Positions 44,201 through 50,933 of a stretch of 64,000 nucleotides of DNA are shown here, piece after piece (the first letter of the stretch is position 1; every line of letters begins with the position of its first letter). Where the stretch lies: contig JAIWNI010000034.1 of NCBI GenBank assembly GCA_025331435.1, positions 186,001 through 250,000 on the forward strand. Direction: 5' to 3'. The notes beneath the pieces were generated by a model that was given only the letters and a program-made list of their open reading frames with translations, had not been told where the DNA came from and did no database searches. This stretch comes from Choanephora cucurbitarum (taxonomy: Eukaryota > Mucoromycota > Mucoromycetes > Mucorales > Choanephoraceae). The translations under genes were made by a program, and so were the position numbers.

Positions 44201-45118
44201 ATGGCAGCCAACAGTCTTCCTCCAGACCAAAGATATACGCGTTTAGAGAAATTAGGTGAAGGCACCTATGCAACAGTCTATAAAGGAAAAAGCAGAGTTA
44301 CAGGTGAGATTGTTGCCTTGAAAGAAATACATCTGGATCCAGAAGAAGGTGCTCCATCTACAGCCATTCGAGAAATCTCTCTGATGAAGGAACTAAAGCA
44401 CCCTAATATCATGCGACTTCAGGATATTATTCACACAGAAAATAAGCTGACACTTGTATTCGAATACATGGACCAAGACCTCAAGAAATACATGGACTCA
44501 GCTGCGCGCTCTACACATGGCGCTTTGGATGCCAATACCATCAAGTCGTTCATGTACCAACTCTTACGAGGTATTGCTTATTGCCACGAGAACCGTGTTT
44601 TGCACAGAGATTTGAAACCACAGAACTTGCTTATCAACAAGCACCACCAGTTGAAACTAGGTGATTTTGGTCTTGCTCGTGCCTTTGGTATTCCTGTGAA
44701 TACCTTTTCAAATGAAGTAGTAACATTATGGTATCGTGCACCAGATGTCTTGTTGGGTTCTCGTATGTATTCTACATCAATTGATATCTGGTCCGCAGGT
44801 TGTATTATGGCAGAAATGTATACAGGACGACCCTTGTTTCCAGGCACCACCAATGAAGATCAACTTCAAAAGATTTTTCGCTTGATGGGTACACCCAATG
44901 AGCAAACATGGCCCAATATATCTCAGTTGCCTGAATACAAGCCTGCTCAGGTAGCCTATCCACCTCAGCATATTTCTCAATTTTTGCCCACGATTGATAC
45001 ATGCGGTCTAGACTTGCTCAGTCGAATGCTTCAATATCAACCTCAGCTGAGAATTAGTGCCAAAGATGCATTAAATCATGCTTACTTTAATGATATTAGA
45101 TACTTATTTACAGATTAA
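44201..45118 (+). CDS. PHO85: PHO85-type cyclin-dependent kinase
   Basis: Single-exon ORF of 305 residues, the standard Pho85/CDK5 length. Motifs: [11 protein letters not shown] (19-29), Lys in IVALKEIHL (K41), PSTAIRE helix (52-58), HRDLKPQN with the catalytic Asp near 137, DFGLAR (155-160), [10 protein letters not shown] and the CDK insert [27 protein letters not shown] and [18 protein letters not shown] are typical for Pho85. It pairs with Pcl-type cyclins to couple phosphate/nutrient state, glycogen metabolism and polarity. It lies 180 bp downstream of the MRCK-like kinase and is convergent with the HAC1-type gene. Confidence 0.95.
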
Positions 45119-45245: not shown

Positions 45246-46083
45246 TCATACCAGTGGAATTGAGAACAAGGAATCCCAGTTAAATAGATCGTCCAATTGA
45301 AAATCTTGGTTGACTATTGTGTTTGGTGAATATACAGTATCTTCATCTGAAGAGAATGAGGGTGATAACATAGGAGAAGGCAATCTTGTGGTAGAATCCA
45401 ACACTTGAAGTTTTTGAGTATCATCTGTCGCTTGGTCAACAACCTCCGCTGCAGGGAAAAGGAAAATGGATTAGATCATGAAATTATCAAAAAAAAAAAT
45501 GGGTGGTAAACTTGGCTTTATGAGACGATATGGTATCCAGTTTTTTTTTTTTGAACTTTCTTCAATAACTAAGGCATTCCTTCTTTACGATCCGTGCTGA
45601 ATCGCAAAAGTCATTAAACAAGATAGGATGAACATTGTCAAACTTCATGTGTGGTAATTCAGTGAGTTGTCTTGTGATAGCCTCTAATTGTGCAGTGATG
45701 AGAGCATTTTGAGCCTGCAATTGTTTCACTTGTTCATTCAATGCTTCATTCTGTTCTGTAAGTTGCTTGTTGTTAGACTCAAGTTCAGAAACATATCTAC
45801 GCTTTTTATCGCGAGATTCTTGAGCTGCTGCACGATTACGAAGGATTCTTTCTTTTGTCTTTTGGTCTTTATCATCCAGTGAAAGTCTTGATTTCTTTGA
45901 AGCAACAGAATCATCTCTTTCAATACTCTTTCTCTTTTGATTGCCAGAAGCAACTGGAGGAGGAAGAGGAGAAACGATAGTAGAAGTAGTGGTTGCTACA
46001 AGAGGGTCAACAGCAAAATCCATAGGCAACGATAAGATATCGGCAAGTGAATTGTTGTTGTCGTTGTCGTTGTTGTTGGTCAT
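45246..46083 (-). CDS. HAC1: HAC1/XBP1-type bZIP regulator of the unfolded protein response
   Basis: The first segment (45597-46083) encodes an Asn/Asp-rich N-terminus, a Ser/Pro linker and a bZIP: basic region RILRNRAAAQESRDKKRRY (79-97) and leucine zipper (99-140). Unspliced translation adds ARIVKKECLSY and stops at 173 residues. A second open segment (45246-45451) encodes EVVDQATDDTQKL, LPSPMLSPSFSSDEDTVYS and QLDDLFNWDSLFS, an acidic/aromatic activation-domain-like tail. No GT-AG pair joins the two in this frame, whereas cuts at CAG/CAC (45597/45596) and CTG/CAG (45452/45451) give a continuous 230-residue protein. This is the arrangement of Ire1-spliced HAC1/XBP1 mRNAs; the predicted product would be the nuclear activator of ER-stress genes. 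Confidence in bZIP is very high, in Ire1 processing high. Confidence 0.9.
45452..45596 (-). other. Predicted Ire1-type unconventional intron (145 nt) of the HAC1-type gene
   Basis: The 3' site is the 7-nt loop CTG/CAGC closed by CC:GG and further T-A/T-G pairs, identical to the XBP1 3' loop. The 5' site CAG/CACG sits in a loop on the stem GCGAT...ATCGT, with a T-G pair closing it; it fits C-x-G at the cut but has C instead of the usual G at position 6. Removal shifts the frame and replaces the stop. The segment also holds GTAAAG and a CTAATCC plus poly-pyrimidine before the 3' site, which might attract the spliceosome but would give another frame. Confidence 0.78.
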
Positions 46084-48771: not shown

Positions 48772-50327
48772 ATGAACTCTGTACACGAAACCAAAGATTG
48801 GCAAGGAAACAGCTGCCAGCAACCACCTTTGCAGACACCACCTATTGCACTTGATTCGGCTGCTTCTCCTAAACTTTCCCATAGTGCAAACGCATTTCCA
48901 ACTTCTCCTGCTAGTGCTTATCAACAAAACAATGTGTATCGAGCTCAATCACAGCAAAACATGTAAGTTTAAAGAAAAAATTGAGACTTGTTATAATCAT
49001 GGGCTTATAAAGACCGTGCATTATGCTGTACCTGTCGCTGTTTAAGTGCTACAGGTATCACATAAAAAAAAAAGATAAGAATGGCTTATTTATTTTATTT
49101 TTTCTAGGCAACCTTATACACCAACAGAAACAGACCCAAATGCAAGATTGCCTGGGTAAAGTTGATATCATTTATTTATTTAAACAGTTAGCTTTCTTTT
49201 TGCTGAAATCGGTGCTAACTGTTTTTTTTCTCTCCTTTAAAAATTATTGTTTATAGTATGATGGCGCATTCACAACCTGGAACACCTTGTCCAGAAAATA
49301 ACAATGGCAACGTGACAAACCTTACATCCGAACCAGCTTTATACCAACAACCTCCTCCATTTGCTACTCGCAACGTCTGCAGAGGAAGATCTAACCTGTT
49401 TGCTAACGAAACCGGTCCTTACTTTAGTTCATCTAAGCCTTTTGATAACTTATATGCATCTGACAAACAGACACTGTAATGTGATACATATCATTAGCAT
49501 AGTAACATACTCATGGTTTTGATCTCAATAGATTATCAGTGCGTGTTCAATCAAAGATGGATCGAGGTTTCTTTTTAGCAGACAACGATTGGACGTGTTA
49601 CCGTCGTAACTACTTTCAAGTCAGCAGTGTCTTTTCTGTGCATGGCTTTAACCATTACTACTCTATCAATGAACCTCGTGTCTATGTCAAGTCAGATGAA
49701 GATGGTGCTCTTTACCCCGTTCAACGCTTCTTGCTTGGTATCTCAGCTCGAGTAGCCAACAGTGAAAAGGAAATCGATCTGATTCAACATACACCTAAGC
49801 GTGACAAGGGTCCTCAATTCAAACCTGACCCTAAGCCTATTTCACCTGGTGGCAACCTGACAATGAGCTCAGTCGCTAATAATCAAAACATTGTCACTTT
49901 TGAACGTGTTCAGTTCAAGACAGCCACAGCCAACAATGGAAAGAGAAGAGCTGCTCAACAGTATTATATCTGTATCACTGAACTCTATGCCGAGACAGAC
50001 CGTAACCAGCTTGTGAAGGTCGCTTCTTGTCAATCTGCTCCCCTGGTGGTGCGTGGTAGAAGCCCTGGTCATTACGCCGATAACCAAGAACGTCATCATC
50101 CCTATGCTGCTTCATCTTCTGCACCTATCAACTCTGTTTCGGATGCAATGACATCTCAGCCTATGACGCCTCAGCCTACACCTCCCATTCATCAAGAGAA
50201 CAACAATCGCCAAATGATGTATAACTCTTACCCAAAGACACCTACTCAAGAAACATCACCTATGATGCAACATGGTTATGAACAACCTAACCCTCCACCT
50301 CCCCCACCTCCTCAAGTTCAACAACAA

Positions 50328-50359
<32 letters not shown>

Positions 50360-50933
50360 ACACCAACAACAACAACAACACCAACAGCAGCAACAGCAAC
50401 AACAACAACAACAATCTTCTTATTCGTATTATCCTGCTTACCCTTCTTATTCTCATGTTCAAGGTCAACAACCTCAACAACATCAAATGGCACCCAGTGT
50501 TTCTTCACCCATGTCTCACCCTCCTATGCCATCTCCTTATGGTCATCATCCACAAGTGAACTATGCTGTTCATGATGGCAATCACTCTAATCCTTATGGC
50601 AATGAAGTCTACCACAACAACTCGACACCTACTACAGAAGAACCTAAGATGCCTCATCACTTCCATATGCAACAAACAGGACCTATTGAGTCTCCCCATA
50701 GTGGCTATGACTGGCAACGTGCAAGATACAACAGTTCATCTTCTGGATCTTCTTCTGTTCCATCTCCTGGTGGTCAACAAGGTGAACCTCAACAAGCCTA
50801 TTTCCCTCACCATCATCACCCAGAAGGACGACCTTACTCACCTACCACACCTACCTATCCACCTAATATGATGCAATCAAGAAAATACAGCAGTACTGTA
50901 TCCAATCTGATGAACAAACAACAACTTGCTTAA
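48772..50933 (+). CDS. NDT80/PhoG-domain (p53-like) transcription factor
   Basis: Exons 48772-48962, 49108-49155, 49257-49475 and 49532-50933 give 619 residues. The N-terminal 150 residues are Ser/Gln/Pro-rich. The DNA-binding domain begins near 153: VRVQSKMDRGFFLADNDW, TCYRRNYFQVSSVFSV, VQRFLLGISARVA, HTPKRDKGPQF, VTFERVQFKTATANNGKRRA and YYICITELYAE, ending SAPLVVRGRSPGHY. These are core elements of the Ndt80/Vib-1/Xpr family. The C-terminus is low-complexity with a long poly-Gln tract (about 416-448). Family members control meiosis, nutrient response, protease or xylanase genes; the targets here are unknown. Confidence 0.93.
50320..50415 (+). repeat. CAA/CAG trinucleotide tract encoding poly-Gln
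   Basis: About 30 consecutive CAA/CAG/CAC codons in the NDT80-type gene give Gln with two or three His interruptions. The reverse strand shows poly-Leu and poly-Val shadow ORFs here. A likely site of length variation between strains. Confidence 0.9.

Follow-up and report, generated by a model that had tools for sequence, protein, structure and literature searches.

The bZIP gene on the minus strand of the window, which is the whole 64-kb stretch of Choanephora cucurbitarum DNA analysed here, raises the question of whether its mRNA is cut by Ire1 in the manner of HAC1, and whether the intron removed in this way could also hold back translation by pairing with the leader. The features of the gene on which the argument depends are as follows.

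46083-45597, minus strand, 487 nt: exon 1, from the ATG through the bZIP region up to CAG, by frame reading
45870-45703, minus strand: bZIP domain, residues 72-127 (Pfam bZIP_2, 44.5 bits; bZIP_1, 37.9 bits)
46083-45562, minus strand: unspliced frame of 173 aa, with an intron-encoded tail at its end
45596-45452, minus strand: predicted Ire1-type intron, 145 nt, by frame restoration, the joins of relatives, and folding
45451-45246, minus strand, 206 nt including the stop: exon 2, with the remainder of the split codon, an acidic-aromatic tail, and the stop
45588-45444, minus strand: rival GT-AG intron GTAAAG...GCGGAG, 145 nt, phase 0, by enumeration of joins

Coding segments and their predicted join

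Both Pfam bZIP scores in exon 1 lie above the cut-offs. Translation confirmed the original prediction of a bZIP product of 173 aa when unspliced: removal of the 145 nt leaves a single open frame of 230 aa, of which 68 residues come from the exon-2 tail, and the bZIP is the sole domain that Pfam recognises in this product. The exon-2 frame is closed upstream by a stop at 45473. The intron had been described as longer than those of Aspergillus and animals and shorter than that of yeast; at 145 nt it lies within the range of 19 nt to almost 850 nt given for fungal introns of HAC1 type in an excerpt of PMC6222058. In the genome searched (33.4 Mb, 357 contigs), the profile PF00170 matched 29 places, 26 of them above the cut-off, and a homology search returned the gene itself plus 11 distant matches with E values no better than 1.3e-7. 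Two of the bZIP matches (C76:7011-7190 and C112:357488-357667) share score, length, and frame, and reflect either a recent duplication or a copy made in assembly. A search against Rfam gave 5 matches, none at the gathering score, and a tRNA scan of the window found zero tRNAs. The convergent neighbour on the plus strand (44201-45118) is a protein kinase frame without introns (Pfam Pkinase, 254 bits) that we take to resemble a PHO85/CDK-type kinase; a further plus-strand frame (49539-50933) is rich in glutamine and proline runs and presumably resembles a velvet-type regulator.

Among the 68 homologous proteins, the best named matches were from Mucor, Parasitella, Rhizopus, Helicostylum, and Gilbertella. 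Both coding segments are present in Mucorales relatives, which is the outcome that the original prediction had made a test of itself. Three Mucor lusitanicus proteins display the alternatives side by side: P0009 is the unspliced model, ...NDFCDSARIAKKECLIE (DFCDSARIAKK), P0002 has exactly the predicted join, ...NDFCDSA^AEVAK... (the caret marks a join or cut), and P0079 carries the tail as an independent protein. Hesseltinella P0023 has the same join (SA^AEV), while 4 models join the segments differently (M. bainieri P0003, Parasitella P0004, Helicostylum P0006, and Rhizopus arrhizus P0022). With two gene models joined at this very point, the cuts first proposed, like the assignment to the HAC1/XBP1 type, are well supported, and we infer that P0002 and P0023 rest on cDNA. 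A query with the tail returned 20 ORFs, all of them tail-bearing by construction, whose tail protein sequence is strongly conserved. P-A-A-E spans the 3′ site in 18 of the 20, the exceptions being P0079 (another upstream join) and P0084 (which begins within the tail). Since P-A-A can only be CCN GCN GCN, the 3′ loop in these ORFs must be CNG^CNGC.

The conserved tail bears on the notion that there is no splicing here at all and that the locus holds either a pair of independent genes or a tail that has degenerated. Such an arrangement would fit the public annotation of Mucor lusitanicus, which splits the tail (P0079) from the bZIP part (P0009); given the conservation of the tail and its fusion to the bZIP in 6 models (P0002, P0003, P0004, P0006, P0022, and P0023), we regard it as barely credible. 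The two parts are nevertheless split in at least one public genome and joined elsewhere by doubtful introns, so that the active tail of a stress regulator is missed or garbled in annotation.

A different challenge comes from the spliceosome. The original prediction held that no GT-AG intron joins the two segments in frame, a claim that did not survive enumeration: there are 103 frame-restoring GT/GC-AG joins, many of which delete bZIP sequence, and at least 23 have a GT donor beyond offset 250, including GTAAAG 45588-45444 (230 aa) and GTTATT 45569-45449 (238 aa). Judged by eye these joins are weak, the donor at 45569 being poor. The most relevant form of this alternative is an ordinary intron from GTAAAG at 45588 to ...GCAGCGGAG at 45444 with no need of Ire1. 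It restores the frame by joining SARI to VVDQ, its acceptor region is preceded by a pyrimidine-rich stretch, and P0003, P0004, and P0006 keep SARIAKKE ahead of the tail. Yet the join must pass over a CAG 5 nt upstream of its acceptor, which is out of frame for that donor, and the donor GT is not conserved in most homologues, where the residue after SARI is A in 43 of the 51 with SAR and V in the other 8. Codon reading indicates that no GT-AG intron yields S-A-A-E from the S-A-R of P0009 and the P-A-A-E of P0072, which has the same tail, and the letters of P0002, taken with the unspliced P0009, are incompatible with a GT-AG cut. A spliceosomal intron also explains neither the hairpins nor the 18-bp match presented below, and we consider it quite unlikely.

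Some ORFs of relatives may bear the marks of introns elsewhere in the gene. P0031, P0036, P0038, and P0039 enter RILRNRAAAQ straight from unrelated letters, as at an ordinary intron; P0008 and P0010, from near relatives, are continuous at RILRNRAAAQ yet retain the downstream intron, which, if they derive from RNA, would have been kept while ordinary introns were removed. The intron-encoded tails of P0007, P0008, P0013, P0014, P0016, P0018, P0020, and P0038 vary in length and end in (V/M/L)C plus at most one residue, an ending that may reflect conservation of an element in the RNA or a degradation signal at the C-terminus.

Hairpins at the predicted splice sites and candidate processing enzymes

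The predicted Ire1-type intron is bordered by two hairpins, whose loop sequences are as the original prediction gave them.

45609-45583, minus strand: 5′ hairpin, loop CAGCACG (45599-45593) on a 10-bp stem with G-U pairs, putative cut after 45597
45459-45443, minus strand: 3′ hairpin, loop CTGCAGC (45454-45448) on a 5-bp stem UUUCC/GGAGG, putative cut after 45452

The 3′ loop equals that of XBP1, as the original prediction stated. Folding of both sites, which had been proposed as a check, gave a divided answer. The 5′ hairpin is stable (−10.9 kcal/mol for a 36-nt piece; z −3.17; equalled by 2 of 200 shuffles), whereas the 3′ hairpin is weak on its own (z 0.91 and 0.11 for two piece sizes, equalled by 171 and 78 of 200 shuffles, respectively). 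The presumed transcript (1061 nt) contains 25 C-x-G heptamers, and stems of at least 5 bp occur in exactly 2 of them, which are the two predicted splice sites. Dinucleotide shuffles of the transcript carried two or more such hairpins in 40 of 2000 cases and one of 10 bp in none. Over both strands of the window there are 42 C-x-G heptaloop hairpins of at least 5 bp, and 3 of at least 10 bp, the 5′ site among them, so that a long stem is by itself not unique.

According to an excerpt of PMC8104961, S. cerevisiae Ire1 prefers CNG^(C/A)NGN. The 3′ site fits CNG^CNGN here and in 18 of the 20 ORFs of relatives, as a sequence whose hairpin is weak in isolation. The 5′ site departs from the preferred form: C1, G3, C4, and a strong hairpin are present, and position 6 of the loop is C, which makes it a variant, non-canonical site. 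In predicted folds, this loop can close as C1-G7 around 5 unpaired bases.

The deviant base had been presented as a feature of this gene. We were able to follow it through the residue after S-A, which was scored in 58 of the 68 homologues (P0022, P0054, P0056, P0058, P0061, P0062, P0063, P0065, P0066, and P0068 being unscored), because with the serine taken as TCN, as in the window, R bars G at loop position 6 and A or V requires it. R was found in 51 homologues, including that of Choanephora cucurbitarum itself, V in 4 (P0059 from Entomortierella, P0060 from Mortierella, P0064, and P0067), and A in 3 (the spliced models P0002 and P0023, and P0048 from Endogone). By protein letters, then, position 6 is without G in all 51 SAR-bearing homologues and G is kept in the Endogone and Mortierella-type ones; the canonical form CNG^CNGN suits the outgroups but not the R group. 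The C at position 6 is therefore present as predicted, and it is no oddity of a single gene. The missing G6 across the group amounts to a natural experiment on substrate recognition by Ire1.

The genome also encodes candidate enzymes for both steps. One gene carries a KEN (RNase) domain, in 2 exon pieces on contig C12 that align with IRE1 structures, and a kinase domain lies in the open frame preceding them. A Trl1-type ligase domain (PF09511) is present in 3 pieces on contig C14. RtcB gave no match in the genome, compared to 9 of 14 control genomes that were positive. PF08302 and PF08303, the CPD and kinase parts of Trl1, had no match in the genome either, but the controls were equally silent. 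The Trl1-type ligase frame (C14, 1091-2326) ends with no evident fused kinase/CPD part nearby, and Mucorales, we presume, may use a split ligase. Together, these results make it very likely that the gene is of HAC1 type and that its intron is of the Ire1 type.

Complementarity between leader and intron

A complementarity search and folding added three elements to this picture, of which the leader-intron match is absent from the original prediction.

46150-46133, minus strand: leader arm, −67 to −50 from the ATG
45517-45500, minus strand: intron arm, +567 to +584, by complementarity search
45554-45487, minus strand: A-tract/U-tract stem in the intron with the intron arm in its loop, by folding

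The two arms are perfect complements over 18 bp, the leader arm standing 50-67 nt before the ATG in a leader that, like the transcription start, we infer. Within 150 nt of leader sequence a single ATG is present, at the extreme 5′ end. Across 2000 shuffle pairs no match was longer than 15, or than 11 when GC-poor matches were excluded, and none reached 18; of 299 pairs of stretches taken from other parts of the window, a single one attained 15 with GC-poor matches excluded, and no pair attained 18. The 18-mer has 2 perfect copies in the genome, which are the two arms; with 2 or 3 mismatches it occurs at 28 further places, the same number as for the reversed control. The duplex has an energy of −34.1 kcal/mol, and its arms exceed the 11 bp that an excerpt of PMC8881652 gives as enough for repression by the yeast HAC1 pairing.

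When the intron and its flanks were folded (z −1.96, equalled by 4 of 200 shuffles), the arm lay in the loop of the A-tract/U-tract stem and both splice ends were brought together. Folds at near-full-transcript length are unreliable, and the free ones nonetheless lend the duplex no support: three free folds contained 0 of the 18 duplex pairs, with mean pair probabilities of 0, 0.016, and 0.188. Forcing the duplex cost 1.9 kcal/mol (46190-45246), 2.3 kcal/mol (46160-45246), and 9.4 kcal/mol (46190-45120); at 28 °C the cost for fragment 46190-45246 was 5.1 kcal/mol.

A search for the DNA of relatives in one genomic and one viral contig collection gave no match, and the introns of relatives were read only via protein letters in differing frames. 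A nucleotide core, CCACCCAATGG, is compatible with 5 of the 20 exon-2 ORFs in three frames, being read as STQW (P0056), PPNG (P0058, P0077, and P0085), and IHPME (P0079); 9 other ORFs start with M-E, consistent with ATG-GAR at the core position, and traces of the core are absent from 6 (P0069, P0070, P0071, P0072, P0078, and P0084). When the residues encoded by the introns of the 18 P-A-A-E ORFs were shuffled, the mean was 0.006 compatible ORFs against 4 observed (P0079 excluded), counts that are not independent insofar as the core was picked by eye and some ORFs are perhaps from near relatives. A conserved exon-2 start codon at the ATG-GAR of the core was considered and dropped, since P0056, P0058, P0077, and P0085 use other frames. 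Extended by AAA, the core matches the complement of the window's leader over 10 nt and the window's own intron over 7; matches of at least 10 nt occurred in 2 of 5000 shuffled leaders. The introns of relatives thus appear to keep a core that matches the leader, and our reading is that the two arms may drift together, with the leader here retaining 3 bases that its intron has lost. For Mucor, a lock of this kind predicts a leader element close to TCCATTGGGTGG.

It is also conceivable that Ire1 splicing is real and the match has no translational role, arising as an accident of an inverted repeat, or as a promoter element together with a protein site in the intron. The leader copy includes ATTGG, which is a CCAAT box in reverse, and CCAAT is found in the relatives' intron core as well; transcription may start downstream of the leader arm; and the free full-length folds lack the duplex. 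The intron arm in this gene is CCACCCATTT, without CCAAT, yet 18 bp of complementarity are kept, and the shuffle pairs argue against an accident. The arms are moreover placed in leader and intron as in the yeast HAC1 described in an excerpt of PMC8881652. Weighing these points, we find a match devoid of translational role unlikely, and a working leader-intron lock likely.

A proposed locked HAC1 and its known counterparts

In the mechanism that we propose, the unstressed mRNA would retain the 145-nt intron, and the 18-bp duplex between leader and intron would hinder ribosome loading; any protein that leaked through would end in the intron-encoded tail and lack the activation domain. ER stress would lead Ire1 to make its cuts at CAG^CACG and CTG^CAGC and the Trl1-type ligase would join the exons, whereupon the lock would depart with the excised intron and the protein would gain, through the frameshift, the acidic-aromatic tail of 68 residues. 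We hold this whole proposal, a Mucorales HAC1-type gene with Ire1 splicing and a leader-intron lock, to be quite probable. For the wider reading we see about an even chance: that Mucorales HAC1 is under such a lock with arms that have co-drifted, and that the 5′ substrate loop of Mucorales Ire1 has moved from a G6 to a non-G6 form, possibly closed by C1-G7, whereas G6 was kept in Endogone and Mortierella-type fungi.

Leader-intron control of HAC1 is a classic example that was established in a single yeast. The novelty here is a probable lock outside the yeasts and a variant 5′ loop across a group. If true, the lock would be either ancient and repeatedly lost, or arisen twice, and its presence in Mucorales would allow its age and origin to be tested from the leaders and introns of public genomes. 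Among the literature matches listed, none reports HAC1 splicing in Mucorales; the 2011 intron survey of Hooks and Griffiths-Jones, reportedly the main survey of HAC1-type introns, was outside their scope. In an excerpt of PMC4891664, the terms Mucor, Rhizopus, and zygomycete are absent.

Excerpts of the yeast literature allow the closest comparison. S. cerevisiae HAC1 has a 252-nt intron, and its leader (−38 to −20) pairs with the intron (764 to 782) (PMC8881652); ribosomes are kept from loading by this pairing, and any protein that escapes the block is targeted for decay by its intron-encoded tail (PMC5114014). The gene studied here shares with it the bZIP, the stop-bearing intron, the short second exon, the two predicted hairpin sites, and a leader arm complementary to an intron arm (PMC8881652, PMC5114014). 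It differs in its 145-nt intron, its perfect 18-bp arms, a leader arm that is farther upstream (−67 to −50), a 5′ loop without G6, and a second exon that adds 68 residues compared to 18. Kluyveromyces lactis HAC1 likewise has a predicted pairing (−52 to −28 with +909 to +936; excerpt of PMC6116095), in a yeast close to S. cerevisiae, whereas the present case is from Mucorales. The excerpts consulted describe such a lock only for S. cerevisiae and yeasts related to it. A review, in the same excerpt of PMC6116095, relays the suggestion that the lock is confined to the long introns of yeasts near S. cerevisiae, and intron size was thought to rule it out for Candida albicans HAC1 (PMC6116095). Cryptococcus neoformans HXL1 is, like this gene, an Ire1-type bZIP mRNA beyond Ascomycota with stem-loop borders; its intron is 56 nt and, in an excerpt of PMC3154848, the authors found no leader complement to it, whereas the intron here is longer and has such a complement. 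With Aspergillus hacA, Candida albicans HAC1, and animal XBP1, finally, the gene shares the predicted cut in two heptaloops and the frameshift to a new C-terminus, and it differs from them in that their introns are much shorter, at about 19-29 nt.
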